Source of the DNA: Bacteroidota bacterium
GTDB taxonomy: Bacteria > Bacteroidota > Ignavibacteria > Kapaibacteriales > UBA961
Assembly: GCA_005788035.1 (NCBI GenBank)
Contig: SXZI01000022.1
Location: 1-36,042, forward strand
Reading direction: 5' to 3'
Length of the DNA: 36,042 nt
Part shown: one piece after another, positions 15,285 to 36,042 of the stretch
Numbering within the stretch: position 1 is the first letter of the stretch
Layout of the letters: each line of letters starts with the position of its first letter
The notes under the pieces: generated by a model
Database searches by the model: none
The model's input: only the letters and a program-made list of their open reading frames with translations
Told to the model about the DNA's origin: nothing
Position numbers and translations under genes: made by a program

Positions 15285-18200
15285 ATGCGAACAGAAGATC
15301 CGATATATCACATCATAGAGCGATTGCGTTCAGTACATCGCAGAGAACAATTCATGAAATTGCATGCCGCGTTCATGAATACATGTTCTGTTTCAAGCAT
15401 TGTATTGATCTTCTGTGCTATAGTCGAGCTTTTTGCGCAGGGTAATATTGCCTTTAGGACTTTTCTCTTTGCTTCATGGGTGATACTATCTGTTGTATCA
15501 TTACTCATGTTTACTCTCATTCCTTTTCGACAATTATTGCTTTCTTCGAGCAATCATGTGTATGATTCCATTGCTTCAAGAGTCGGTGCATTGTTTACGG
15601 ACATCAGGGACACATTGCAAAATGCGCTTCAATTGATACAAACAAAAGATTCATATCCTGCTTCCGCAATACCATTCATACAAGCTGCATTTGAGGATGT
15701 ATTGCATAAAACCCATGAAAAAGATTTTTATTTGATAATTGATGAACAAGAGCGTAAACGATCACTGCTATTCATGATGATTAGCCTTGGGATGACGATT
15801 ATGTTATTCATTGGAATATCTCCGCTTAGAGATTCACTCGGCAGAATATTCCAGTATGATGTGTCATTCATACCTCCTGCCCCGTACAGTTTGGATATTA
15901 CACCAGTCAATAAGACTGTTTTGCGCGCTAGCAAGGAAGAAATTCTTATTACTGTAAAAGGTACTCTTCCAGCTCGAATCGTATTACATATCAAAGAAGA
16001 GATGCAGGAAACATATGATACGGTTTCCATCGTTACGGATACTTCGCATGTATACAAATACGAAATCACATCGGCAAAGTCTTCATTGTATTTTTATGCA
16101 CATGCAGACTGGTTAGCAGAACAAGTGTTGTCACCAAAGGGGAACATTATTGTGATTGACAGACCCGAAATACGCTCATTGTCGGGTACTGTGTCTCCAC
16201 CTTCATATAGTAAGCAATCAGGAAGAACTCTCGATGAACAATCAGCTGATATTCTTGCTTTGAAGGGAACCAATGTAGTTCTTGAAATAGCCGCTAATAA
16301 ACCATTGTCCAAAGCATTCATTGTTATGCTTAAACAGAAAGGCATGACCAGTATTGATAATGCAACAAACAAACAATATGATACAACCAGAGTAGCGATG
16401 AATGTGCAGGAAATGTCTGCAAAAGGATCTTTTTCCATTCGTCAGGATGGAGAATATTTCATCAGTATTATCGATATTGATGGCAGGATGAATGCAGACC
16501 CAATTCATTATGCTATCACAGCAATTTCAGATAATTCCCCTACAATATCATTGATAGAGCCCCAAGGAAATGGCGTACTGAACGAGCAAGCATTATTACC
16601 AATCACTGTGCACATCAGCGATGATTATGGTTTTGGTGGTTTGAAATTGCACTATAGGCTCATTGAATCCATCTATGCTCCTGCAATGCAACAATTCACT
16701 TCGCTTTCTATTCCCATCCCCGGATCAGCAGGGCTAAGTACGGATTTATCTTATACATGGGATTTGAATACCATTGGAATAGCTCCAAGTGACAAGTATG
16801 AATTCTATCTGGAAATCATAGATAATAATACTGTAACCGGTCCAGGAAGAGCTAGAACAGGAATCATATCAATACGTCTTCCATCTTTGGATGAAGTATT
16901 GACTCAAGCAGATTCAGTTCAGGATAAAGCACTTGAAACATTGGAGCAAACTGCAAAGGATGCAGAGAAGATTGGGAAAGAACTCGAAGAGCTTCAAAGA
17001 GAGTTATTGAAGCAGGATCAATCAATGGAGTGGAAAGATGCAAAGAACATTGAGAATATGCTGAAAAAGCAAGCAGATCTTCAACAACAATTGTCAGAAG
17101 TTGGGAAACAATTGCAAGAGATGACAAATGAATTACAAGACAAAAATGCAATGTCACCAGAGACATTGCAAGAATATCAAAAATTGCAACAACTCATCAA
17201 AGAGGTTAATTCTCCGGAATTGAAAAAGGCAATGGAAGCCATGCAGAAAGCAATGCAGCAGGTTGATCCGGAGCAGATGCGCCAAGCCATGAAGAACATG
17301 AAATTCAATGAAGAGGAATTCAAGAAGGGAATTGAGCGAACAATGAACCTACTCAAACGCATGCAGGTTGAACAGAAAGCAGATGCATTAATCCGCAAGG
17401 CGGAAGAGCTAGCACGAAAACAAGACGAGTTGACTCAAAGAACAGAGAATACCAATCCTCGAGATACCAAAGAACAAGAACAACTATCCAAAAATCAAGA
17501 TATTTTGCAGAAAGAATTGAAAGACCTTGCTTCTGATTTGAAGCAACTTGAAGAATTGATGAAAGACCTCAAACAGCAAATGCCAATGGATGAATTGGAT
17601 AAGGCTAAACAAGAACTTTCAGAGCAACAGACAGATCAGCAGATGGAAGCCGCGCAACAAGACATGCAAAATGGCCAGATGAATGCTTCTGCCCAAAAGC
17701 AAAAGAAAGCATCACAAGCGATGAAAAAGTTTGCAAAGCAAATGAGCCAAATGAAGCAACAAATGAAAAAGAATATGAATAAAGAAGCCATCAGACAGAT
17801 GCAAAAATCATTACAGTCTGCATTGGCCATGTCGAAGCAACAGGAAACTCAAAAGTCAAAATCCCAATCTTTAGATTATAATTCCACTCAATTGCCTCAG
17901 TCGTCTCAGGAGCAAGCAAAATTACAAGAACAACTTTCATCAATGGCTTCGGAACTTATGCAATTGGCTCAAAAGACTCAGGCAGTCACTCCGGACATGG
18001 TCAAAGAGATGTCCAATGCCATGCAAGGCATGCAAAAAGCTTCAGAGCAATTAGGACAAAGAAATCCACAAATGGCCGCCAAATCGCAAGGTCAAGCAAT
18101 GGATGCATTGAATAAGGCTTCAATCAAAATGCAAGATGCATTAAATAAACTGCAAGGTGAAGGAGATGGATCCTGTGATAATCCCGGTGGTCAAGGTGAA

Positions 18201-18770
18201 GCAAAATCAGGAAGTGGTGGATTCATGCAACAATTGCAAAAAATGGCCGGTATGCAAGAGCAAATCAATCAAGGCATGCCTCAACCGGGTGCTGATGGAA
18301 GTCTAACTCCACAGCAGCAACAACAATTGGCTCGTCTTGCTGGGCAACAAGGAAAAGCTCAGCAAGCGATGCAGGAATTGGCAAAACAACAACAGGATCC
18401 TACAGGAAAGAAACAAGCTTTGGGGGATTTGCAACAAATAGCTGATGAAATGAAAGAAATTGTCTCAGCCATGCAAAGTGGCTCAATTACTCCTGAAACA
18501 CGTAGAAGACAAGAAAAAATATTATCCAGACTTCTTGATGCCACTCGTTCAATCAATGAACGAGATTTTGAAATGAAAAGAGAATCAAGAAGCGGAATTG
18601 ATATCATTGGTAAAAATCCGCCACCTCTGGATCTTGCAACACCAGAAGGCCGCCAAAGAGCAATGCAAGATGTACTTCGATCCTTGGGTAAAGGTTATAC
18701 GAAAGATTATGAAATCATGATTAGGCAATATTTTGAGCGACTGCAAAAAACACAGGGTGGACTCCGATGA
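15285..18770 (+). CDS. DUF4175-type membrane protein with giant Gln/Met-rich coiled coil
   Basis: A 1161-residue membrane protein. Hydrophobic helices lie at about 32-51, 57-80 and 161-180. A periplasmic beta-rich region follows to about 530, with segments such as VSPPSYSKQSGR and ISDDYGFGGLKLHYRL that are typical of DUF4175. From about 540 to 1060 the sequence is a long Gln/Met/Lys/Glu-rich helix, almost certainly coiled coil, with a short Gly-rich break near 960. The C-terminal tail ends LRSLGKGYTKDYEIMIRQYFERL. The function is unknown. Its pairing with DUF4159 is seen across Bacteroidota, and it overlaps the next gene by 4 bases (ATGA), suggesting translational coupling to the thioredoxin-like protein. 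Confidence 0.85.
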   Translation: MRTEDPIYHIIERLRSVHRREQFMKLHAAFMNTCSVSSIVLIFCAIVELFAQGNIAFRTFLFASWVILSVVSLLMFTLIPFRQLLLSSSNHVYDSIASRVGALFTDIRDTLQNALQLIQTKDSYPASAIPFIQAAFEDVLHKTHEKDFYLIIDEQERKRSLLFMMISLGMTIMLFIGISPLRDSLGRIFQYDVSFIPPAPYSLDITPVNKTVLRASKEEILITVKGTLPARIVLHIKEEMQETYDTVSIVTDTSHVYKYEITSAKSSLYFYAHADWLAEQVLSPKGNIIVIDRPEIRSLSGTVSPPSYSKQSGRTLDEQSADILALKGTNVVLEIAANKPLSKAFIVMLKQKGMTSIDNATNKQYDTTRVAMNVQEMSAKGSFSIRQDGEYFISIIDIDGRMNADPIHYAITAISDNSPTISLIEPQGNGVLNEQALLPITVHISDDYGFGGLKLHYRLIESIYAPAMQQFTSLSIPIPGSAGLSTDLSYTWDLNTIGIAPSDKYEFYLEIIDNNTVTGPGRARTGIISIRLPSLDEVLTQADSVQDKALETLEQTAKDAEKIGKELEELQRELLKQDQSMEWKDAKNIENMLKKQADLQQQLSEVGKQLQEMTNELQDKNAMSPETLQEYQKLQQLIKEVNSPELKKAMEAMQKAMQQVDPEQMRQAMKNMKFNEEEFKKGIERTMNLLKRMQVEQKADALIRKAEELARKQDELTQRTENTNPRDTKEQEQLSKNQDILQKELKDLASDLKQLEELMKDLKQQMPMDELDKAKQELSEQQTDQQMEAAQQDMQNGQMNASAQKQKKASQAMKKFAKQMSQMKQQMKKNMNKEAIRQMQKSLQSALAMSKQQETQKSKSQSLDYNSTQLPQSSQEQAKLQEQLSSMASELMQLAQKTQAVTPDMVKEMSNAMQGMQKASEQLGQRNPQMAAKSQGQAMDALNKASIKMQDALNKLQGEGDGSCDNPGGQGEAKSGSGGFMQQLQKMAGMQEQINQGMPQPGADGSLTPQQQQQLARLAGQQGKAQQAMQELAKQQQDPTGKKQALGDLQQIADEMKEIVSAMQSGSITPETRRRQEKILSRLLDATRSINERDFEMKRESRSGIDIIGKNPPPLDLATPEGRQRAMQDVLRSLGKGYTKDYEIMIRQYFERLQKTQGGLR

Positions 18771-20721: not shown

Positions 20722-21131
20722 TGTCTGAAAAAGAAATTGGAAGATTTGAACATAGTATAGCATCATTCGAAGAGATCACAATAGAAGGCAAGTCCTATCT
20801 TCGGATATGTAAATCTGATGAGGTATTTCAGAAGAAAGGTAAGAACATCTATTTTGATGAAGATGTACAAGTCGCTTTGTTTAGAGAAGGTTCGAAGATT
20901 TATGCAGTTTCTAATATCTGTCCACATCAATATGCAGCTGTCATTTGTGATGGATTGATAGAAGAAGGTACAGTTACATGTCCGCTTCATGGTTGGATAT
21001 ATTCTCTTGATTCTGGTAAGGCTCTTGGTAGCAATGCACGCTTGAAGACTTATTCCATTTTTGAGCTGGATGGATTTGTAATGCTCGAGAAACCTGAAAA
21101 GAACACTCCATTATGGCTACGGAACTTCTGA
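20721..21131 (+). CDS. Rieske [2Fe-2S] ferredoxin-like protein
   Basis: A 136-residue soluble Rieske protein. The cluster ligands are Cys67 and His69 (CPHQ) and Cys87 and His90 (CPLHGW), spaced 17 residues between the pairs, as in NirD-type and dioxygenase-ferredoxin proteins. There is no signal peptide or membrane helix, so it acts in the cytosol. It carries one electron for an unknown partner; no oxygenase or nitrite reductase gene is present. I start at ATG 20721, which overlaps the MBL stop; the frame's TTG at 20718 adds one residue. Confidence 0.88.
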   Translation: MSEKEIGRFEHSIASFEEITIEGKSYLRICKSDEVFQKKGKNIYFDEDVQVALFREGSKIYAVSNICPHQYAAVICDGLIEEGTVTCPLHGWIYSLDSGKALGSNARLKTYSIFELDGFVMLEKPEKNTPLWLRNF

Positions 21132-22099
21132 CAATGCAGGTCGATTTATCGCTTAATGCTGAAAGAGTGAAGCAAGCTGCAAAAAAAGCTGGTTTTGAAT
21201 TGGTTGGTATTGCAAAAGCAGAATCCACCCCAGAAGAATATATCCAATTTGAAGAATGGTTGTCAGCAGGGTATCATGCAACCATGACCTATCTCGAAAG
21301 AAATACCGAAAAGAGGAAAGACATACGCGCAATAATGCCTGAAGCCAAATCTGTGATAGTTGTCGGACGCTCTTATTATACACCTCAAAATCATGAACAT
21401 AGTGATGATAGAGGCAAGATTTCTAGATATGCCTGGGGTACTGATTATCATGAACTGTTGCCGGATAACATTCAAGAAATCATAAAGGTATTACACACTA
21501 TTCATCCAGATTCCACATCAAAATGGTATGTAGATACCGGTCCTGTTTCCGAAAAACAATGGGCAAGGAAAGCCGGTATAGGTTGGCAAGGAAAGCATTC
21601 AAATATCATTTCAAGAGATATCGGTTCTTGGTTTTTTATTGGCGTGATCATAACAAGTGTTGAACTTGCTCATGATCAGCCTATTCAAGACTATTGTGGC
21701 ACCTGCACGGCATGTATGGAGGCATGTCCAACTGCTGCCATAGTTGAACCATATACAGTAGATGCAGGTAAATGTTTGTCATATTGGACCATTGAGGCAA
21801 AACCCGAAATTTCAATACCGTCCGAAATATCGCAGAACATGGATCAATGGATATTTGGATGTGATATATGCCAGGATGTTTGCCCGTGGAATTCATTTTC
21901 AAAAGAAACAACCATTGCTGAGTTTCATCCCAGACATGGGCAAACAACATTATTACTCAATGATATAATGTCCATGGAACAATCTGAATTCTCCGACAGA
22001 TTCCGAAAGAGCCCCTTGAAAAGAACCAAGCTTGCCGGATTACAAAGAAATGTCGAAGCTTTGCTGCATGCTCAGAAGGATACTGATGAACATATATAG
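21113..22099 (+). CDS. queG: Epoxyqueuosine reductase QueG
   Basis: Cobalamin and iron-sulfur enzyme that reduces epoxyqueuosine to queuosine at the wobble base of tRNA with GUN anticodons. Eight Cys for two [4Fe-4S] clusters are present: 195, 198, 201 and 205 in CGTCTACMEACP, 221, and 250, 253 and 257 in CDICQDVCPWN. The Asp in VDTGP (141 with this start) fits the expected general acid. Length is 328. The first ATG overlaps the Rieske gene by 19 bases; an ATG at 21134, two bases after that gene's stop, gives 321 residues and is equally good. No other queuosine gene is in the window. Confidence 0.94.
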   Translation: MATELLTMQVDLSLNAERVKQAAKKAGFELVGIAKAESTPEEYIQFEEWLSAGYHATMTYLERNTEKRKDIRAIMPEAKSVIVVGRSYYTPQNHEHSDDRGKISRYAWGTDYHELLPDNIQEIIKVLHTIHPDSTSKWYVDTGPVSEKQWARKAGIGWQGKHSNIISRDIGSWFFIGVIITSVELAHDQPIQDYCGTCTACMEACPTAAIVEPYTVDAGKCLSYWTIEAKPEISIPSEISQNMDQWIFGCDICQDVCPWNSFSKETTIAEFHPRHGQTTLLLNDIMSMEQSEFSDRFRKSPLKRTKLAGLQRNVEALLHAQKDTDEHI

Positions 22100-22814: not shown

Positions 22815-22831
22815 AAGATTCCTGGGATCTT
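22815..22831 (+). terminator. Short hairpin after pgeF
   Basis: AAGATTC (22815-22821) pairs with GGATCTT (22825-22831), with one G-T pair and a CTG loop, four bases after the pgeF stop. There is no T run, so it is a weak terminator candidate, but it lies just ahead of a good promoter candidate, as expected at a transcript boundary. Confidence 0.3.
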
Positions 22832-22865: not shown

Positions 22866-22895
22866 TTTGATATAGAAGAGATATTCGTATTTTTG
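22866..22895 (+). promoter_or_regulatory. Candidate Bacteroidota-type promoter for the TPR/barrel/TonB region
   Basis: TTTG at 22866-22869 (-33) and TATTTTTG at 22888-22895 (-7, TAnnTTTG) are separated by 18 bases, within the known range. This is the best promoter match in the window. It would start transcription some 25-30 bases before the TPR gene's ATG at 22929. Confidence 0.55.
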
Positions 22896-22928
22896 AATTG
22901 CAGCATCTTTCCATCCAAACAAAGTATT

Positions 22929-25900
22929 ATGAAGCACTGGTTTTTCGTGGCCATTTGCATATTGTGTTCAACAATGATGCAGGGTCAATTGATGAATCCC
23001 GGTATCCTTTATGGGACAAAGGACCTCCGTGAGATTGCCAAACTCGTCGATGAGGGTTTATTGGCAGAGGGAAGACTACGATTACAACGTTCATTGAGCA
23101 TCGCCCAAACAAGTGCAGCCAAAGATGAAGCGCATATGTTGCAATCCCTGATTTTGAGGCAATCTCAAGATTATCGATATGCAGACAAACTCCTCGGGGA
23201 ATTTATTCAGCAGCGACCCAATTCTCCCTTCATACCCATCGCATGGTTGGAACGTGGATTCATAGCATATCACATTACGGAGCTTTCCAAAGCAGTTGAA
23301 TATTTTTCGGGTATCGTCAATTTAACGCAAGAAAAAGCAAAAAATGATTCAGTCTTTGCCGATTATCGAGCAGAGGCTTTGTATTGGAAGGGAGCATCTG
23401 AAGCGCGACTTGGAAATCCTGATAATGCTTTATCAACATTGAAAGAGATGCAGGATATATATCCGCTTCATCGTCTTGCTGATGATGCATTGTATATGAG
23501 AGCTCAGTTGAAAGAAAGGTCAGGTTTGGAACAGGAAGCCGTGGTATTGTATGGGGAATTATTGCGTACATATCCCATGCGAAATACAGTATTGAATTCT
23601 GCGATCCGAGCTTCCAATATCAAACTTGGCATGCGTGAACCAAATGCATCTATAGCATATATTGATCAAGCCCAAGCAGTCATTGATAAATTACAAGCGA
23701 GTGACACATCAATTATAAAACCCGAGGAACAATCCTTCTCAAGTAGATCGAAGGAGGATATCGCATTCATAAAAGCTCAAGCATTAGTATTGGCAGGGCA
23801 ATGCAAATCTGGTTTGCAGGCATTTGAGGCATTTATGTCAGCATTTCCCGGATCCCCATTATTCATGCATGCAAACATGTCTGCAGGATATGCAGCATTC
23901 CATTTGCAGGACTATGCAGTATCCAAATCATATTATCAATATGTCATTGATTCCGCTCTAGATGAACAAGCACTGCTTCGTTCCGGAGCTCAGCTTTATC
24001 ATGCATTGATAAGCAAAGCAATCGGAGATCGAAGCTTGGCAAAGAAAGAATTCTCTTCTTTGTCCATGCAGACCGGCTATCCCTTTTTGGCGCAGGCATT
24101 ATTGGAATATGGTCAATTGGCATATGAGGATAATGAACTTGAAACAGCACGCAAAACCTTTGAAAGGGGTATTCGCGAAACGCAGGAAAAATCTTTGCTT
24201 GTAAAGTTCCATTTGCTTTTGGGAAGTGTTTATCATGATCAAGAGCAATTTGGAAAATCAGCAAGGGAATATGCATCTGCAGAGAGAATTGCAATTTCCA
24301 TGTCAAATATGGAATTGGAGAATAAAGATAATATCCTTGCGGAAGCTCGCTTAAAACAAGGGATATCATTTCATCAAAATGATCAATATAGAGATGCAAT
24401 CATCGAATTGTCTACATTTCTTGGAGAACATCCCAAAGATTCTAGAAAAGATCAGGCATTGTTTTGGCTTGCTGAGTCTTATTATAGAACAGATTTGTTA
24501 AAGAATGCAGAAGAGTTTTATAAGCAACTCATCAGTGATTTTCCCATTAGTAATAGAAGAGAGGAAAGTTTTTACGGAATTGCATGGTCGCAATTCAGGA
24601 GAAGAGATTTTTCTCAAAGCTCTCAATCTTTTTCAAAACTTGTAAAAGAATTTCCCAAGACTCGTTTTGCCACTGATGCATTGGCAAGAAAGGGTGATGG
24701 CCATTATGTATTGAAGCAATATAAAGAAGCGGCTCAGGCTTATAAGGCGGCAATGAATGAAGGACCTCGCAGCGAGGAAGGGCAATATTCTGCATATCAG
24801 TATGGACAGGCATTATATAGAATAGATGATTTTGATGCAGCAATAAAGGCATTTCGCACATTTGCAAGGTCATATCCACAATCACCACTCTCTGCATCAG
24901 CATTGTACTCAGTGGGTTGGACCCTCTTTCAACAAAGACGCTATGAAGAAGCCATTTCTGAATTAAGGACTTTGCTTGTAAATTATCCATCCACTCAACT
25001 TGCTGCAAGAACGCATTATACCATTGCCGATGCATTTTATAATATGGAACGATATGATGAGGCGATTTCATCGTATACAATCGTCAAGAATCAATATGCA
25101 TCCTCGCCATTGGCGGGTGAGGCTGTAAAGAGCATTCAATATTGCCTTGAATTTTTGGGTAGAATCGATGAAGCTAAAGTAGTCGTTGATGATTTCATCA
25201 TGAAAAATCCAGAATCGGAAATAGCAAAAGACCTAGTGATGAACCGTGGATTAAGTTTATACAATGGAAAGAACTATTCCGGCGCCATTGCTGAGTATGA
25301 AGCATTTCTTAAGAGCAATTCCGATATGGAGCGTAATGCAGAAGCATTATTCTACTTAGGGAAGAGTTTCGCAAGTCTTGGTGAGCCAGCAAAAGCAGAG
25401 CAATCATGGCGTGATGTGTTCAAACGCTATGCAAAAAGCGAATATGCACCATTGGCTCTATTGGAAATTGGCCTTCTGAAAACGAATGATCAACGATTGC
25501 GAGAAGCGGATACTGCTTTTGCCCTGGTCATGACGGAATTCCCTGAACACTCCTCTTCGGCCCAAGCCGGTTTCGAAAGAGCTGAAATAGCAAATTCCTT
25601 GGGGGATTCATTACAGGCATTGCGATTCTACACACTCATCGCGGATACATATTCCAGCACAGAATACGGAGATCAATCTCGATACAGAATTGCAATGTAT
25701 TTTCGTTCTCGCTTGATGTATGACAGTGCTTTGGTTCATTTCAACTCATTGGCGAAGCGGATTGACAATCCCAATATTGCTGCTGAAGCTCAATATCGCA
25801 TTGGTGAACTTTGGCTGAAGCAAAAAGAATATGACAATGCCATCACCGCATTTTTGGGAGTAAGAGAACAGTTTAGCTCAATAGAAGATTGGTTCTCATT

Positions 25901-26054
25901 ATCACTTCTTGGACTTGGCGATTGTTATGAAACAATCAAGAATTATGATGCCGCCAAAGAAGTGTTTCAAACATTGACTACGCTTCGTCCCGATGATGAT
26001 TATGGTAAATCAGCTTCTGCTCGATTGAAGAGAATCCAAAAGGTAAAGCCATGA
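22929..26054 (+). CDS. Large exported TPR protein
   Basis: A 1041-residue exported protein built almost wholly of tetratricopeptide repeats. A signal peptide covers the first 19 residues, with Gln20 at +1. The repeats are spaced about 35-37 residues and many have the YbgF/BamD-like pattern (ALFWLAESYYRTDLLKNAEEFYKQL, ALYSVGWTLFQQRRYEEAI). TPR solenoids bind other proteins, so this is likely a periplasmic scaffold. The ATG at 22929 opens the signal peptide and follows a promoter candidate; the TTG at 22830 in the same frame would lie upstream of that promoter. The stop overlaps the barrel gene (ATGA), coupling the two. The repeat region has no catalytic motif that I can see. Confidence 0.87.
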   Translation: MKHWFFVAICILCSTMMQGQLMNPGILYGTKDLREIAKLVDEGLLAEGRLRLQRSLSIAQTSAAKDEAHMLQSLILRQSQDYRYADKLLGEFIQQRPNSPFIPIAWLERGFIAYHITELSKAVEYFSGIVNLTQEKAKNDSVFADYRAEALYWKGASEARLGNPDNALSTLKEMQDIYPLHRLADDALYMRAQLKERSGLEQEAVVLYGELLRTYPMRNTVLNSAIRASNIKLGMREPNASIAYIDQAQAVIDKLQASDTSIIKPEEQSFSSRSKEDIAFIKAQALVLAGQCKSGLQAFEAFMSAFPGSPLFMHANMSAGYAAFHLQDYAVSKSYYQYVIDSALDEQALLRSGAQLYHALISKAIGDRSLAKKEFSSLSMQTGYPFLAQALLEYGQLAYEDNELETARKTFERGIRETQEKSLLVKFHLLLGSVYHDQEQFGKSAREYASAERIAISMSNMELENKDNILAEARLKQGISFHQNDQYRDAIIELSTFLGEHPKDSRKDQALFWLAESYYRTDLLKNAEEFYKQLISDFPISNRREESFYGIAWSQFRRRDFSQSSQSFSKLVKEFPKTRFATDALARKGDGHYVLKQYKEAAQAYKAAMNEGPRSEEGQYSAYQYGQALYRIDDFDAAIKAFRTFARSYPQSPLSASALYSVGWTLFQQRRYEEAISELRTLLVNYPSTQLAARTHYTIADAFYNMERYDEAISSYTIVKNQYASSPLAGEAVKSIQYCLEFLGRIDEAKVVVDDFIMKNPESEIAKDLVMNRGLSLYNGKNYSGAIAEYEAFLKSNSDMERNAEALFYLGKSFASLGEPAKAEQSWRDVFKRYAKSEYAPLALLEIGLLKTNDQRLREADTAFALVMTEFPEHSSSAQAGFERAEIANSLGDSLQALRFYTLIADTYSSTEYGDQSRYRIAMYFRSRLMYDSALVHFNSLAKRIDNPNIAAEAQYRIGELWLKQKEYDNAITAFLGVREQFSSIEDWFSLSLLGLGDCYETIKNYDAAKEVFQTLTTLRPDDDYGKSASARLKRIQKVKP

Positions 26055-27658
26055 TGTTGAGCCTTATTGTATTGTTGTTGATGTCTACCCCAATTGTGGC
26101 GCAAGACAATAAAAACACAGCCGATCAACAATTGGATTTGCAGGAGTTTGTTATTACAGGAAAGACAAATGCCGAAATCAAAGGCGGCTTAAAAATGAAG
26201 CCGTCAAAACCGGGGACACTCTCAAAAGCAGAATTAGATTCAATCAATACAGATGTTAAGATACCTGTACCATTATTGCCTACTGTGCCTTTACCATCTA
26301 GTGCAATGAGGCCCTATTCAGTACAAGGTTATGTCATGGGTGAATTTGGCATATTTGTCACTCCATATATCAATGCCGGATATTCATTTTCATCCGGTGG
26401 ATATGCAATTGATGTATTTGGAAATGTTGAACGTAGTTCAGGTCATGTTGATAATGCTGATTATACAAAAGCAGGCATATCCTTGCGTGCAAGTTATGAT
26501 GCTCCAAAAAAATTCATATTCTTCGGAGGAAGTCGCACTGAATCAGGGTTCACTTATGCCAATAAGTCATTTAAGCTATTCGGTGCCGACAAGCAATTTG
26601 TGTTGGATCGTTCCATGAACGATATAGGGGCGCATGTTGATGTCAAGGGTATAGTTGGTGAATATTCCTATGCAATGGGTGCTCTATGGCAGTCCCTTTC
26701 AATAGAAACTTCTGATAGTGCATTTTCAGATGCACGGATCAAAGGGTTTGCTGATATTACAATGCCATTGATGGGGATGCCTATCACAACTTCTTTATTA
26801 GTTGATCTGCATTCCTATGGCGAAGATTCCGATTATAATTTTTTACAAGCAGGGGCTTCTACCATCTGGACCAGTGGCGATTTAACTATTCGAGGTAGTG
26901 CTGGTTTTCAATCAGCAATGAATTCTCAAGGTGTGCAATTTGGAGCAATCTCTCTGATGGGTGATATTGATTATCGACTATCTTCAGAGTTTACAGCCTA
27001 TATGCACATAAGATCAGGTCTGAATAATTCATCGCTTTCACAAATGCTCGCAATCAATCCATATGTAATGAATAGTCCTGTTATTTCATTCAGAAGAGAT
27101 GATATAGATATAGCTCCCATGTTACAATGGCACCCATCAATCGATGTATCATCTTCAATAAAGTTATCATATCGTTCTTCCTCGAATATTCCGGTAATGG
27201 TTCCCAATTCGCTTGAAATAGGAAAGTTTGCCGGATTTGACATTGATTACATTTCAGCAACATTGTTGGACATGCGATTTGAAACCCAGTGGAAAGTATG
27301 GGGGCATTCAACCATCGGTGGATTTGCATCATATACCCATAGTTCCCAAGCAAATCAGGATATTGCCATTCCCATGATTGCTCCACTTACAATAGGATTA
27401 CGATATGAGCGTATGTGGTCAAGTTCCATGCAATCTGTCTTTTCTGTCGAGCATATAGGTTCCAGAACGGTCGATAAGGAGGGTCTGATAGATATACCTT
27501 CTTATATCATGGCCAATGCTCGAATGAATTATACCATTCAAAAGGACTTCGAAGCTTATCTTCGAATAGATAATATCCTCAATGCTTCTGTGTATCTTTG
27601 GACTAGATTCCGTGAGCGGGGAACATTTGTGGCACTAGGTGCAAGATATCTTTTCTAA
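26051..27658 (+). CDS. Outer-membrane beta-barrel resembling a TonB-dependent receptor without a plug
   Basis: A 535-residue outer-membrane protein. A signal peptide is cut at about Ala17, leaving Gln18 at +1. Near residues 28-36, LDLQEFVITGK resembles the TonB-box/plug entry seen in TonB-dependent receptors (E-V-V-V-T-G). A Pro-rich linker follows, and from about residue 92 alternating aromatic/hydrophobic strands run to the end. The final strands (LRIDNILNASVYLWT, then ERGTFVALGARYLF) match the last strands of TonB-dependent receptors. The roughly 130-residue plug domain is not seen. It overlaps the TPR gene by 4 bases, with SPOR and TonB-like genes next. The role is unknown; it may be a receptor relative that works with the TPR protein. 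Confidence 0.75.
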   Translation: MMLSLIVLLLMSTPIVAQDNKNTADQQLDLQEFVITGKTNAEIKGGLKMKPSKPGTLSKAELDSINTDVKIPVPLLPTVPLPSSAMRPYSVQGYVMGEFGIFVTPYINAGYSFSSGGYAIDVFGNVERSSGHVDNADYTKAGISLRASYDAPKKFIFFGGSRTESGFTYANKSFKLFGADKQFVLDRSMNDIGAHVDVKGIVGEYSYAMGALWQSLSIETSDSAFSDARIKGFADITMPLMGMPITTSLLVDLHSYGEDSDYNFLQAGASTIWTSGDLTIRGSAGFQSAMNSQGVQFGAISLMGDIDYRLSSEFTAYMHIRSGLNNSSLSQMLAINPYVMNSPVISFRRDDIDIAPMLQWHPSIDVSSSIKLSYRSSSNIPVMVPNSLEIGKFAGFDIDYISATLLDMRFETQWKVWGHSTIGGFASYTHSSQANQDIAIPMIAPLTIGLRYERMWSSSMQSVFSVEHIGSRTVDKEGLIDIPSYIMANARMNYTIQKDFEAYLRIDNILNASVYLWTRFRERGTFVALGARYLF

Positions 27659-27673
27659 TGAGGACATTGCCAT

Positions 27674-28810
27674 ATGAGCAATCAACAACAACCACAAGAT
27701 GAGTTTGGTGGATTCGGCGAATCTGATAATCAAACATTCATGCATGGGAAGTCTCAATCATCAGCTCCATCAGATACACAAGGAGAGAAGTCTCGTTCTG
27801 ATTCATCTTCAGGATTTATTTCCTATGTTCAACCGAATGCACTTCCGGAAGAAGAAAAAACATCCACAAAAAAAATAGGTCTCATAGCAGTATTAACACT
27901 ATCTGTGTTGGCTTTATTGTGGTTCGTATTGCCAAATACATCCGAAAAACAATCATCTGAAAAAATTACCCAGTCAGCAGACACGATTTCTGAGGTGGAA
28001 AAAGCTATTGCAAAAGATAAGGAGATTCTCGATGAAACACGCGAACAAGACTCACTAGCACGTGTGCAGGATTATTTGGCAAGAATGCAGCTAGCCCAAG
28101 GCAAAAGCATAGGTAATAATGAGAGAAATGATGATCAAGTTCAAGAACAGAATGAAGTTCAGAGACCTGTAGAGAAAATAATTCAAAAACAAGATCAGAT
28201 CGCTGAACAAGCACCGATTGAACAAAGAGCGCCGACTAAGAAAGTTGCTCCTCCTGATCCTGTACCTGCAAAATCATATCCTGAATACAATGAAAAAGGA
28301 CAAGGAATTCAATCTCCTTCCATTCAAAAAGATAAACAGCCGGCAAAAATTTCTAAGGTTGAAAGGCAAACTATGCCACAACCTGCACCTAAGATTGAAG
28401 CTAAGCGAAAAGAACCGGTACTGATTGCAAAAAAAGACCTGGTGCGTCCAAAGCCCGCTCAGAAGAAGCCTGCGATGAACAAAAGTCAGGCAAAACAACA
28501 AGTGCTGGATGAAACATTTGATGTTCCCAAAAAGAAAGAAAGGAAAGAGCCGGTAATCAAAGAAAAGAGCAAGAGTACAGGTGCTGAATACTCAGTGCAA
28601 GTAATGGCTAGTATTTCTAAAGATGAAGCTGATGCCGCATTGCGAAAATTAAAATCCAAAGGTGTTTCTTCAGCATTTATGAGCAAAAGATCCTTGAAAG
28701 GAAAGACATGGTATCGTGTTCGTTTTGGAGGATATTCTGAACGAGATCAAGCAGAAAATGCAGCGAGAAAAGCAGGATATACAAATGCCTGGGTTGAAAG
28801 AGTAAAGTGA
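27674..28810 (+). CDS. Single-span membrane protein with C-terminal SPOR domain
   Basis: A 378-residue inner-membrane protein. Residues 1-66 are polar and cytosolic, 68-87 form one membrane helix, about 90-300 is a long charged, Gln/Lys/Pro-rich periplasmic linker, and about 303-378 is a SPOR domain (YSVQVMASISKDEADAAL, then TWYRVRFGGYSERDQAENAARKAG). SPOR domains bind glycan strands lacking stem peptides, often at division sites. The length of the linker would let it cross the peptidoglycan. It lies 15 bases after the barrel gene and 7 before the TonB-like gene. No division gene is nearby, so it need not be a divisome protein. Confidence 0.85.
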   Translation: MSNQQQPQDEFGGFGESDNQTFMHGKSQSSAPSDTQGEKSRSDSSSGFISYVQPNALPEEEKTSTKKIGLIAVLTLSVLALLWFVLPNTSEKQSSEKITQSADTISEVEKAIAKDKEILDETREQDSLARVQDYLARMQLAQGKSIGNNERNDDQVQEQNEVQRPVEKIIQKQDQIAEQAPIEQRAPTKKVAPPDPVPAKSYPEYNEKGQGIQSPSIQKDKQPAKISKVERQTMPQPAPKIEAKRKEPVLIAKKDLVRPKPAQKKPAMNKSQAKQQVLDETFDVPKKKERKEPVIKEKSKSTGAEYSVQVMASISKDEADAALRKLKSKGVSSAFMSKRSLKGKTWYRVRFGGYSERDQAENAARKAGYTNAWVERVK

Positions 28811-28817
28811 GAAGATC

Positions 28818-29576
28818 ATGCATTTGAGAGAGAGACATAATGAGACACAATTCACCTATAATATTCAGGTGCTGTGGGATCGTTATGCCGCTCGTGGATT
28901 TGGCATAGCTTTGATGTTCATGCTCCTTTTGCTGATTTGGTTTTCCTATACATCAATCAATATTGAACCACTGCAACAAGAATACAATAGTCAACCCATC
29001 ATTTTATTGAATTTTGGTGAGGGTGACGGAACAGGAAAGAGCAAAGGAAATTTGGCCAAAGAAGGAGATGCTTCATCCGGTGCTAAACCTGAAAATCCAT
29101 TGCAAGATGCCGGCAAAACAAGATCTACATCATCGCCAATTGATCCTTTATCAACCTCAAACTTGACCGCAAAAGAAGATGTTTCTGCAATTAATAAAAC
29201 CGACATAGATTCTATGAAAGGGAAAGGTTCATCGATTGGATCCGGTGTTGGTACAGGAACAGGTTTAGGAAATAAAGGCACAGGATCTGGAAAAGGAATG
29301 GGTCTAGGTGATATTGAGTGGGGCGGTGGTGGTAATCGGACAGTATTGAATAAAGTTATGCCCCCCAGTCCTGAAACCCTCACAAAATTAGTTTCAATCA
29401 AAATACGATTTACCGTTCTTCCGGATGGAACTGTAGGTGAAATGAGGCCAATGACCAAGGGGGACCCCAGTTTGGAGGGTGTGTCTATGAAAACTCTTAA
29501 AAAATGGAAGTTTAATCGTTTGGAGGCAGATCTTCAGATGACAGGAACGATTACCTTCACATTCAAGCCTAATTAA
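28818..29576 (+). CDS. TonB-like energy transducer
   Basis: A 252-residue protein with one N-terminal membrane helix (about 28-45). The periplasmic stretch has a Gly/Ser/Lys-rich low-complexity part around residues 135-170. It ends in a TonB C-terminal-like domain (about 190-252) with IKIRFTVLPDGTVGEM and then LKKWKFNRL. TonB passes inner-membrane energy to outer-membrane barrels, so the neighbouring barrel is the obvious partner. The usual Pro/Lys-rich spacer is replaced by Gly-rich sequence. No ExbB or ExbD gene is in the window, so it would have to borrow a motor or act as a passive linker. Confidence 0.8.
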   Translation: MHLRERHNETQFTYNIQVLWDRYAARGFGIALMFMLLLLIWFSYTSINIEPLQQEYNSQPIILLNFGEGDGTGKSKGNLAKEGDASSGAKPENPLQDAGKTRSTSSPIDPLSTSNLTAKEDVSAINKTDIDSMKGKGSSIGSGVGTGTGLGNKGTGSGKGMGLGDIEWGGGGNRTVLNKVMPPSPETLTKLVSIKIRFTVLPDGTVGEMRPMTKGDPSLEGVSMKTLKKWKFNRLEADLQMTGTITFTFKPN

Positions 29577-29585
29577 TTCATCAAC

Positions 29586-29762
29586 ATGCCTGATTTTCCC
29601 CAAATATTCGAGCAATTCCCCATAATTATCCTTTTCTTGATTGGGGTGATTGTCCTGTTAATTGTGCTGAAAGTGGCACGTAGTTTCATTAAATTTGCAC
29701 TATCTGTTTGCGCCTTGGTAATCTTGGCGCTCGTTATTCTGAAACTTCTGAATCAACCCTAA
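29586..29762 (+). CDS. Small two-helix membrane protein (58 residues)
   Basis: A short frame filling the gap between the TonB-like gene and ugd. ATG 29586 runs to TAA 29760-29762, giving 58 residues. Residues 12-30 and 38-54 are strongly hydrophobic (FPIIILFLIGVIVLLIVL and FALSVCALVILALVILKLL), separated by a short basic turn (KVARSFIK). The stop is one base before the ugd ATG, and the start is nine bases after the previous stop, so it fits the operon exactly. I do not recognise a family. The basic loop between the helices suggests both ends face the periplasm. An untranslated gap is possible, but the composition is strongly that of a membrane protein. Confidence 0.6.
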   Translation: MPDFPQIFEQFPIIILFLIGVIVLLIVLKVARSFIKFALSVCALVILALVILKLLNQP

Positions 29763-29763
29763 T

Positions 29764-31104
29764 ATGTCACAAACGATTGGAATCATCGGAACAGGATATG
29801 TCGGTCTTGTAACCGGTACATGTTTCGCTGAAAGTGGAAATAATGTTCTTTGCATTGATGTAGATCAACATAAAGTTGAAACCTTGCTTCAAGGTAAAAT
29901 GCCCATTTATGAACCTGGGCTCGAACATCTGCTTGAACGTAATATTAGCAATGGTCGTTTAAAATTTTCAACTGACATAGAACTTGCTGTCAAACAATGC
30001 ACCATTCTGTTTTTATGTTTACCTACACCTCCAGGTGAAGATGGTTCTGCTGATTTGAATTATGTTATGGATGCAGCAAAGAATATTGCTGAAATCATAA
30101 AAAAAGAGAATATAACTGATCTACGAATTCTTGTAAATAAAAGTACTGTTCCTGTAGGCACGGCTGATAAAGTTCGCTCCATATGTAGAAATGCTGCCCC
30201 TGGTTTTGAAATTGAAGTCGTAAGTAATCCTGAGTTTTTGCGTGAAGGATTTGCAGTAGAAGATTTCATGAAACCTGATCGTGTTGTTGTGGGTACCTCC
30301 AATCCCAAAGCAGAACATGTGATGAGAGATATCTATGAACCTTTTCTCCGAAGCGGTAACCCAATTTATGTGATGGACGAAAAAAGTGCAGAAATCACAA
30401 AATATGCAGCAAATTGTTTTTTGGCGATGAGAATATCATTCATGAATGAACTTTCCGCATATTGTGAAACAATTGGTGCGGATATAGAAAATGTTCGAAT
30501 TGGTATAGGATCAGATTCAAGAATTGGAAAAAGATTTCTCTTTGCGGGCATTGGATATGGTGGAAGCTGTTTCCCAAAAGATGTTAAAGCGCTTCTTCAT
30601 TCCACCGATGCTGTTGGAACACCACTTGGTATCATTCATGCGGTGGAAGATGCAAATGCACGTCAAATACAACGATTCGTGGAAAAAGTAATTGATAGGG
30701 TACCAATTATCAAAGGGGCTAAGATTGCCTTGTGGGGGTTGTCATTCAAGCCAAATACCGATGATGTAAGGGAAGCGCCTGCATATACTATTATTGATCG
30801 ATTACTCGAAAAAGGTGCTCACATATCAGCATATGATCCGGAAGCAATTCCTAATACAAAGACTATTTATGGTGATTCAATTCAATTTGCAAGTTCTGCA
30901 TATGGCACTTTACAAGACGCCGATGTGCTGATTATTGCAACAGAATGGAATGAATTCAGAAAACCGGATTTTGCAGTATTGCGCAAAACCATGAAACATC
31001 ATTTGATTTTTGATGGACGTAATCTCTTTGATCCTGAAATCATAGCATCCGAAGGTTTCGAATATCATAGCATTGGCAGACTCGCCTCCGGCATTCATTC
31101 ATAG
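29764..31104 (+). CDS. ugd: UDP-glucose 6-dehydrogenase
   Basis: Cytosolic enzyme that oxidises UDP-glucose to UDP-glucuronate in two NAD-dependent steps, supplying acidic sugars for polysaccharide. It is 446 residues. The NAD-binding motif is GTGYVGLVTGTCFAESG at the N-terminus, followed by CLPTPPGEDGSADL and NPEFLREGFAVEDFMKPDR. The catalytic Cys269 is in GYGGSCFPKD, and the C-terminal UDP-binding domain opens LSFKPNTDDVREAPA. The length and motifs fit the bacterial family. UDP-ManNAc dehydrogenases are related but differ in these segments. It is followed by a family 2 glycosyltransferase, which suggests an exopolysaccharide or glycolipid product. Confidence 0.94.
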   Translation: MSQTIGIIGTGYVGLVTGTCFAESGNNVLCIDVDQHKVETLLQGKMPIYEPGLEHLLERNISNGRLKFSTDIELAVKQCTILFLCLPTPPGEDGSADLNYVMDAAKNIAEIIKKENITDLRILVNKSTVPVGTADKVRSICRNAAPGFEIEVVSNPEFLREGFAVEDFMKPDRVVVGTSNPKAEHVMRDIYEPFLRSGNPIYVMDEKSAEITKYAANCFLAMRISFMNELSAYCETIGADIENVRIGIGSDSRIGKRFLFAGIGYGGSCFPKDVKALLHSTDAVGTPLGIIHAVEDANARQIQRFVEKVIDRVPIIKGAKIALWGLSFKPNTDDVREAPAYTIIDRLLEKGAHISAYDPEAIPNTKTIYGDSIQFASSAYGTLQDADVLIIATEWNEFRKPDFAVLRKTMKHHLIFDGRNLFDPEIIASEGFEYHSIGRLASGIHS

Positions 31105-35287: not shown

Positions 35288-36042
35288 TTATTTCTTTGCA
35301 GCAGATACCGGAGTTCGGATTTCTACAAAGACCGTACGAGAATAAGCCCTTCCTTGCGGAGATTGATTCGTGAAGGGATAGGTTTTTCCACCCAATGGGA
35401 TTATTGTCACTTTATCATCCGGAAGTTGAAGAAATTGTTGAACTTCCTTGCATCTAGATTGAGACAAAGCAGTGTTATATTCTATATTACCACTTTGATC
35501 TGTATGTCCGCTGATAGTGACAAAAGAGTTGTCTTTAATGGATTCACGTATCGTTTTGGCTATTTGCTGATTAGCAGAGCTGAGGGTTGACTTGTTAAAT
35601 TCAAACAAAATGAGCGCAAACCGTTCAATGAGTGTATCATTAATTTGTAATTCTTGTTTTTTCTTCAATGTTAAGCGTTCGGTTGCAATAGATGTTGTCC
35701 ATTTATGCGTTTTTCCAAGTGTGTCTATTGCAGTAAACTTGACCGTATATGGTTTATCTTCCATGCTTTGCGAAGGTGCGATTCGCCATTTTAGCATTGT
35801 ATCGGGTATATTTCCATTGCCTGATATACTATAAATGGTATTGTTTTCATCTTCGATTTGAATGGCCCAAGCACGAATAGGTTTGCCATCTTCAATGGTT
35901 GGTTTTAAAAGAACATAAGGGGGATTCATAGTCTTGATATATGTTCTCTTTTTCAATGGAGCCATAATGGAAAAATCTTTCGATAAAATTTCAGCACGTG
36001 AGTTTTCAGATTGCCCCTCTATTGAATGAGTATTTGATGGAA
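35288..36042 (-). CDS. OmpA-family peptidoglycan-binding protein (N-terminus outside the window)
   Basis: C-terminal part of an OmpA-family protein. The frame stays open to the window edge: about 25 further codons lie upstream of the Met at 35965, with no stop, so that Met is probably internal and the gene continues beyond 36042. The visible middle region (about 110 residues) is of unknown fold and contains NPPYVLLKPTIEDG. The last 100 residues form an OmpA domain: FEFNKSTLSSANQQI, then SGHTDQSGNIEYNTALSQSRC, then GRAYSRTVFVEIRTP. The Asp of GHTD and the Arg of the SxxRC segment are the expected peptidoglycan contacts. Its C-terminus resembles the second OmpA domain of the protein at 10366-13122. 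Confidence 0.85.
   Translation of the reverse strand, partial: PSNTHSIEGQSENSRAEILSKDFSIMAPLKKRTYIKTMNPPYVLLKPTIEDGKPIRAWAIQIEDENNTIYSISGNGNIPDTMLKWRIAPSQSMEDKPYTVKFTAIDTLGKTHKWTTSIATERLTLKKKQELQINDTLIERFALILFEFNKSTLSSANQQIAKTIRESIKDNSFVTISGHTDQSGNIEYNTALSQSRCKEVQQFLQLPDDKVTIIPLGGKTYPFTNQSPQGRAYSRTVFVEIRTPVSAAKK

Follow-up and report, generated by a model that had tools for sequence, protein, structure and literature searches.

A conserved TPR-barrel-SPOR-TonB gene cassette in Bacteroidota as a candidate Tol/Ton-type trans-envelope linkage machine

Results

Layout of the cassette and its surroundings

The cassette occupies positions 22929-29762 of the window (the whole 36,042-nucleotide stretch of DNA analysed, part of a draft genome of 2.16 Mb on 212 contigs) and consists of five ORFs, all on the plus strand. 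In turn they encode a TPR protein that is exported, a barrel of the outer membrane, a SPOR protein of the inner membrane, a TonB/TolA-like protein and a small two-helix membrane protein (Table 1). A sequence-only reading of this DNA had described five adjacent genes with tiny gaps or overlaps, and every one of the ORFs was present as first described, the successive intergenic gaps being -4, +15, +7 and +9 bp. The mechanical ORF of the TPR gene begins at 22830 and the ATG at 22929 was taken as its start.

Table 1 Features of the five-gene cassette, with positions given in the window
Feature	Position	Strand	Remarks
Promoter-like site of Bacteroidota type, TTTG-N18-TATTTTTG	22866..22895	+	Upstream of the TPR gene
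TPR protein, exported	22929..26054	+	1041 aa, ATG at 22929, signal peptide
Outer-membrane barrel, TonB-dependent-receptor-type, plugless	26051..27658	+	535 aa
TonB-box-like N-terminal motif LDLQEFVITGK of the barrel protein	26132..26164	+	Residues 28-38
22-strand barrel (predicted)	26327..27652	+	Residues 93-534 of the barrel protein
SPOR protein, inner-membrane	27674..28810	+	378 aa
Short motif GGFGESDNQTF in the cytosolic part of the SPOR protein	27707..27739	+	Order-conserved form GGF...DDDSF
SPOR domain (PF05036)	28586..28795	+	
TonB/TolA-like protein	28818..29576	+	252 aa; single TM helix, Gly-rich linker in the periplasm, C-terminus of TonB fold
TM helix of the TonB-like protein	28881..28949	+	Residues 22-44; without the SxxxH histidine of class relatives
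WGGGGNR motif and TonB-fold C-terminal domain of the TonB-like protein	29319..29567	+	Residues 168-250
Two-helix membrane protein	29586..29762	+	58 aa

The site ahead of the TPR gene had been regarded as the best promoter candidate of the window, a claim that survives in part. The TANNTTTG element forming its -7 half is kept in four genomes of the genus together with about 20 bases downstream, however conservation of the -33 TTTG is incomplete among the four and the bare TTTG-N18-TATTTTTG pattern is not rare, with 3 occurrences in the window where 1.95 would be expected.

Upstream of the cassette lies a QueG gene (21113-22096), an arrangement seen in the genus, and a UDP-glucose dehydrogenase-like (UDPGDH) gene (29764-31104) begins 1 bp after the gene for the 58-aa protein. 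The genes queEC have been noted near tol-pal and porE, possibly by coincidence (PMC12204202). Elsewhere in the window we observed a 1161-aa protein (15285-18770) with a match to DUF4175 (43.6 bits, cut-off 27.3) and two OmpA-domain proteins on the same contig (10324-13122, with two OmpA-like stretches, and 35288-35965) that are possible wall-binding partners.

Gene order is conserved across the order, class and phylum

In order to assess conservation we compared 42 neighbourhoods from the order (window included), 22 from the class and 18 from the rest of the phylum, with ORFs picked without a filter against ORFs overlapped by longer antisense ORFs. The TPR, barrel, SPOR and TonB genes are complete, in the same order and on one strand in 35 of the 42 order loci, while the other seven have no TPR or no TonB gene call, in several cases because the contig stops there. 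The flanking genes vary among the same 42 loci, with PgeF upstream in 4, QueG in 5, UDPGDH after the cassette in 22 and a glycosyltransferase in 4; UDPGDH was found in none of the class and phylum neighbourhoods examined (22 and 18, respectively). SPOR was detected in 12 of the 18 phylum loci. Of the 123 order genomes 120 have a barrel match, usually a single one, and a barrel profile search gave matches in 298 of 345 phylum genomes, those outside the order being weaker and some only partial.

The TPR-barrel-SPOR-TonB arrangement is thus no chance cluster, its gene order being conserved far beyond chance, and because this order is kept across order, class and phylum there is strong support for the claim that the four genes belong to one system. 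Scattered genes, the arrangement that would speak against a common system, were not seen. The link had earlier been drawn from one genome and for all five genes. Proteins resembling the 58-aa two-helix protein, recognised by eye among the hydrophobic small ORFs listed per locus, occur in the majority of the order families sampled, follow the TonB-like gene in most sampled loci of four of them (f1, f3, f4 and f7) and do so in none of the 22 class or 18 phylum loci, therefore the 58-aa protein is outside the ancestral system.

Relatives carry motor genes within the operon

The main clue missed in the single genome lies inside the operon of its relatives. A TolQ/ExbB-TolR/ExbD pair stands between the SPOR and TonB genes in 14 of 22 class loci and 13 of 18 phylum loci, and in none of the 42 order loci. 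With T for TPR, B for barrel, S for SPOR, Q-R for the motor pair and A for the TonB-like gene, the arrangement T-B-S-Q-R-A is complete in 12 of the class loci and 5 of the phylum loci, and a further 5 have B-S-Q-R-A. The motor genes match the MotA_ExbB and ExbD families over cut-off; in one class locus (L105) TolQ was the top ExbB-type model (117 bits against 70 for exbB) and TolR the top ExbD-type model, with all of these scores below the equivalog cut-offs. These genes place the cassette among the Tol/Ton-type trans-envelope machines, and as the pair is usual in class and phylum operons a machine of this type, driven by protons, was probably the ancestral state.

In a tree of the TPR protein the order is a single clade with full support; its members have no motor genes, whereas the lineages around it do, so that loss in the order is the simpler reading. 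Motor presence changes state at least 7 times over the tree, and loss has occurred elsewhere too. The host genome has one ExbB, as does every genome of the genus that is more than 90% complete. Its housekeeping Ton cluster (locus L144, contig C211, 4778-9689) comprises ExbB, two ExbD, a PstS-like protein and two canonical TonB_C proteins, namely TonB and another that is fused to TPR repeats.

We infer that motor drive is absent in the order. An SxxxH motif in the TM helix of the TonB-like protein is found in all 14 class loci with motor genes against 1 of 39 order loci, the histidine being missing from the other 38, a contrast that is largely one clade event and whose Fisher test ignores kinship. 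As many TonB-like proteins of the wider phylum (Bacteroidia-type) are without the histidine despite adjoining motor genes, its loss is no proof of lost drive and we rejected it as a sign of a dead motor.

Domains and predicted folds of the cassette proteins

TPR families score well over cut-off in the exported 1041-aa protein. The YbgF model gave 303 bits (cut-off 90.1) as a whole-protein sum of nine matched stretches and the CpoB model failed (129.7 against 383 bits), thus an identity as CpoB/YbgF was set aside and the match treated as generic TPR similarity. Similarity to the BamD and PorW/SprE models is of the same generic kind, spread over many TPR families, and the scores for GltC/GltE are far below cut-off.

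The description of the second gene as a plugless outer-membrane barrel agrees with both the domain searches and the structure model. The model (mean pLDDT 82) has 22 strands, with residues 1-92 mostly disordered, and in structure it comes closest to TonB-dependent receptors (Z up to 24.0 over 435 residues, rmsd 3.0); the Pfam family TonB_dep_Rec_b-barrel falls just below cut-off (26.2 against 27 bits). No Plug domain was matched by Pfam in the barrel protein and none is seen in its model, for which reason a plain TonB-dependent transporter was set aside. The N-terminus carries a conserved LxLPxFxITG motif at the place where a TonB box is expected, resembling TonB-box stretches, for example VVVTG of a receptor from the same genome. 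This TonB-box-like pattern, fitted to the alignment with positions picked after the data were seen, is present in 41 of 42 order and 15 of 22 class barrels, in 1 of 18 barrels of the wider phylum, whose N-terminal motif is a different one, and in 10 of 244 background windows, an earlier pattern having matched 23 of 42.

The SPOR protein matches PF05036 (51.1 bits, cut-off 21) in a periplasmic C-terminus that follows a single TM helix near residues 68-86. In its relatives the SPOR proteins have at their cytosolic N-terminus an HU or HU-CCDC81 domain that scores over cut-off, and HU-type DNA-binding domains occur in the SPOR-position gene of the same operon in loci L103, L119, L122, L128 and L131, in the last of which the HU domains were matched and SPOR itself was not. 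Fusion of HU/CCDC81 domains to SPOR in Bacteroidetes was reportedly described in a paper of 2017. In place of HU, the SPOR proteins of 31 of the 42 order members have a GGF-x-DDDSF motif, a pattern fitted to these members.

For the TonB-like protein the TonB_C score (18.9 bits) lies below the cut-off of 24.6, which a class homologue passes with 38 bits. The modelled C-terminus matches the TonB C-terminal domain with Z 10.7, TolA domain III being a weaker match at Z about 6-7, and a profile search likewise matches it to TonB. It scores 21.7 bits on the AgmX/PglI tail model (cut-off 40), and the Gly-rich linker carries an invariant WGG.

Discussion

A proposed trans-envelope linkage

On balance we favour the view that the cassette encodes a Tol/Ton-type trans-envelope linkage machine, likely acting at division in a manner resembling Tol-Pal, and that the motor genes of this machine were lost in the order. 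The linkage of the cassette genes is well supported; the division role is reasoned from the partner domains, and the physical contacts and septal location set out below are likewise inferred. The TonB/TolA-like inner-membrane protein would span the periplasm, with its TonB-fold tip gripping the TonB-box-like N-terminal strand of the barrel, and the barrel, as it has no plug, would be a handle or anchor in the outer membrane and not a nutrient gate. On the periplasmic side the SPOR protein may tie the complex to septal peptidoglycan, and its cytosolic N-terminus, with HU in relatives and the GGF-DDDSF motif in the order, may reach the nucleoid or the divisome. The TPR protein would serve as a periplasmic scaffold in the position that CpoB holds.

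The ancestral form would have been powered by its own TolQ/TolR-type proton motor. As the motor genes are lost, and the motor-binding histidine is lost in nearly all members of the order, the linkage there may be passive or may borrow the single housekeeping ExbB-ExbD of the cell. The likely job of such a machine would be to hold the outer membrane to the wall and draw it in at division, as Tol-Pal does in Proteobacteria. In the bacteria studied, denuded glycans of the septum are what SPOR domains bind, and HU suggests contact with the nucleoid, and for these two reasons a role in division appears most likely.

More tentatively, the operon might be the missing Tol-Pal equivalent of Bacteroidota, a motor-driven and phylum-ancestral system tying together the nucleoid (through HU), the inner membrane, the septal wall (through SPOR) and an integral barrel of the outer membrane. 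In the order of the window it would have gained a two-helix partner and become a tether that is passive or works with a borrowed motor. We hold this broader proposal as a possibility that falls short of an even chance.

Alternative explanations

An export or assembly machine, in which protein, lipid or polysaccharide passes through the 22-strand barrel as a pore that is fed by the TPR protein and held to the wall and inner membrane by the SPOR and TonB-like proteins, is unlikely, though it comes with some evidence: the barrel is large and plugless, the TPR protein resembles the BamD and PorW/SprE models, and UDPGDH lies downstream in about half of the order loci. Against this, no UDPGDH was found in the class or phylum neighbourhoods, the similarity of the TPR protein to those models is generic and there is no conserved cargo gene.

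Dedicated TonB-dependent transport, with the barrel moving a substrate and the TonB-like protein energising it in the order through the housekeeping ExbB-ExbD, draws on the receptor-type fold, the TonB-box-like motif and the presence of ExbB-ExbD with a canonical TonB elsewhere in the genome. We consider it quite improbable given that the barrel has no plug by Pfam or model, that it occurs almost throughout the order as a single copy, in contrast to the 18 Plug matches of the host genome, and that its SPOR, TPR and HU partners are no transport parts.

Loosely related housekeeping envelope genes, brought together by co-transcription alone with no common complex, would be a very improbable account of a gene order that is stable across the phylum while its flanks change, and of a motor, transducer, box motif and barrel that make up one coherent mechanism. 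A machine for gliding or surface motility of the AglRQS-Glt kind known from Myxococcus is likewise very improbable, for although TPR proteins, a TonB-like GltG and a TolQR-type motor are common ingredients (PMC3169522) and the TonB-like C-terminus gives a sub-threshold AgmX/PglI score, the cassette is found in nearly all genomes of the order, its operon there is without motor genes and the GltC/GltE scores are far too low.

Comparison with known systems and significance

Returning to the linkage machine that we favour, its operon offers a concrete and testable candidate for how Bacteroidota, which are without a recognisable Tol-Pal, hold on to their outer membrane and pull it inward: it is near-universal and vertically inherited, and brings together a motor of TolQR-like type, a transducer, a SPOR protein that binds the wall and a barrel in the outer membrane. 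The order of the window would be a natural experiment in which the linkage was retained after loss of the motor genes, and the barrel suggests that a TonB-receptor barrel might shed its plug and turn into a structural handle. We found no description of a TPR-barrel-SPOR-ExbBD-TonB operon in the open papers searched, most subscription papers lying outside the search.

The Myxococcus xanthus AglRQS-Glt machinery is similar in its TolQR-type motor, TonB-like transducer, and TPR and barrel proteins; however Glt is without SPOR, its barrels are different, and according to its authors the machinery is not conserved in Bacteroidetes (PMC3169522). With the Ton system (ExbB-ExbD-TonB-TBDT) the cassette shares the barrel fold, the TonB-box-like motif and the TonB-fold C-terminal domain, whereas its barrel is plugless and partnered by TPR and SPOR (HU) proteins, and one near-universal barrel stands in place of many receptors.

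The resemblance to Tol-Pal (TolQ-TolR-TolA-TolB-Pal-CpoB) extends to the inner-membrane transducer with a TonB/TolA-fold tip, the TolQR-like motor genes of the relatives, a periplasmic TPR protein, a peptidoglycan-binding partner and broad single-copy conservation. A genuine Tol-Pal was rejected as neither TolB nor Pal is in the operon: TolB_N had no match there or elsewhere in the host genome (three control genomes were positive), and the domain search gave no OmpA-domain (Pal-type) gene in the cassette. The host genome has 25 OmpA-domain stretches elsewhere, and such proteins could act as Pal. Unlike Tol-Pal, the cassette has in place of TolB and Pal a SPOR protein and a barrel that is integral to the outer membrane, and in the order of the window the motor pair is missing from it.

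A 2025 survey identified no tol-pal loci in Bacteroidetes and PorE has been proposed as their outer membrane-peptidoglycan tether (PMC12204202). PorE is a single CpoB-TolB-Pal-like fusion lipoprotein whose unit is without barrel, SPOR or motor genes, in contrast to the cassette described here, which it resembles as a proposed substitute for Tol-Pal in the same phylum.
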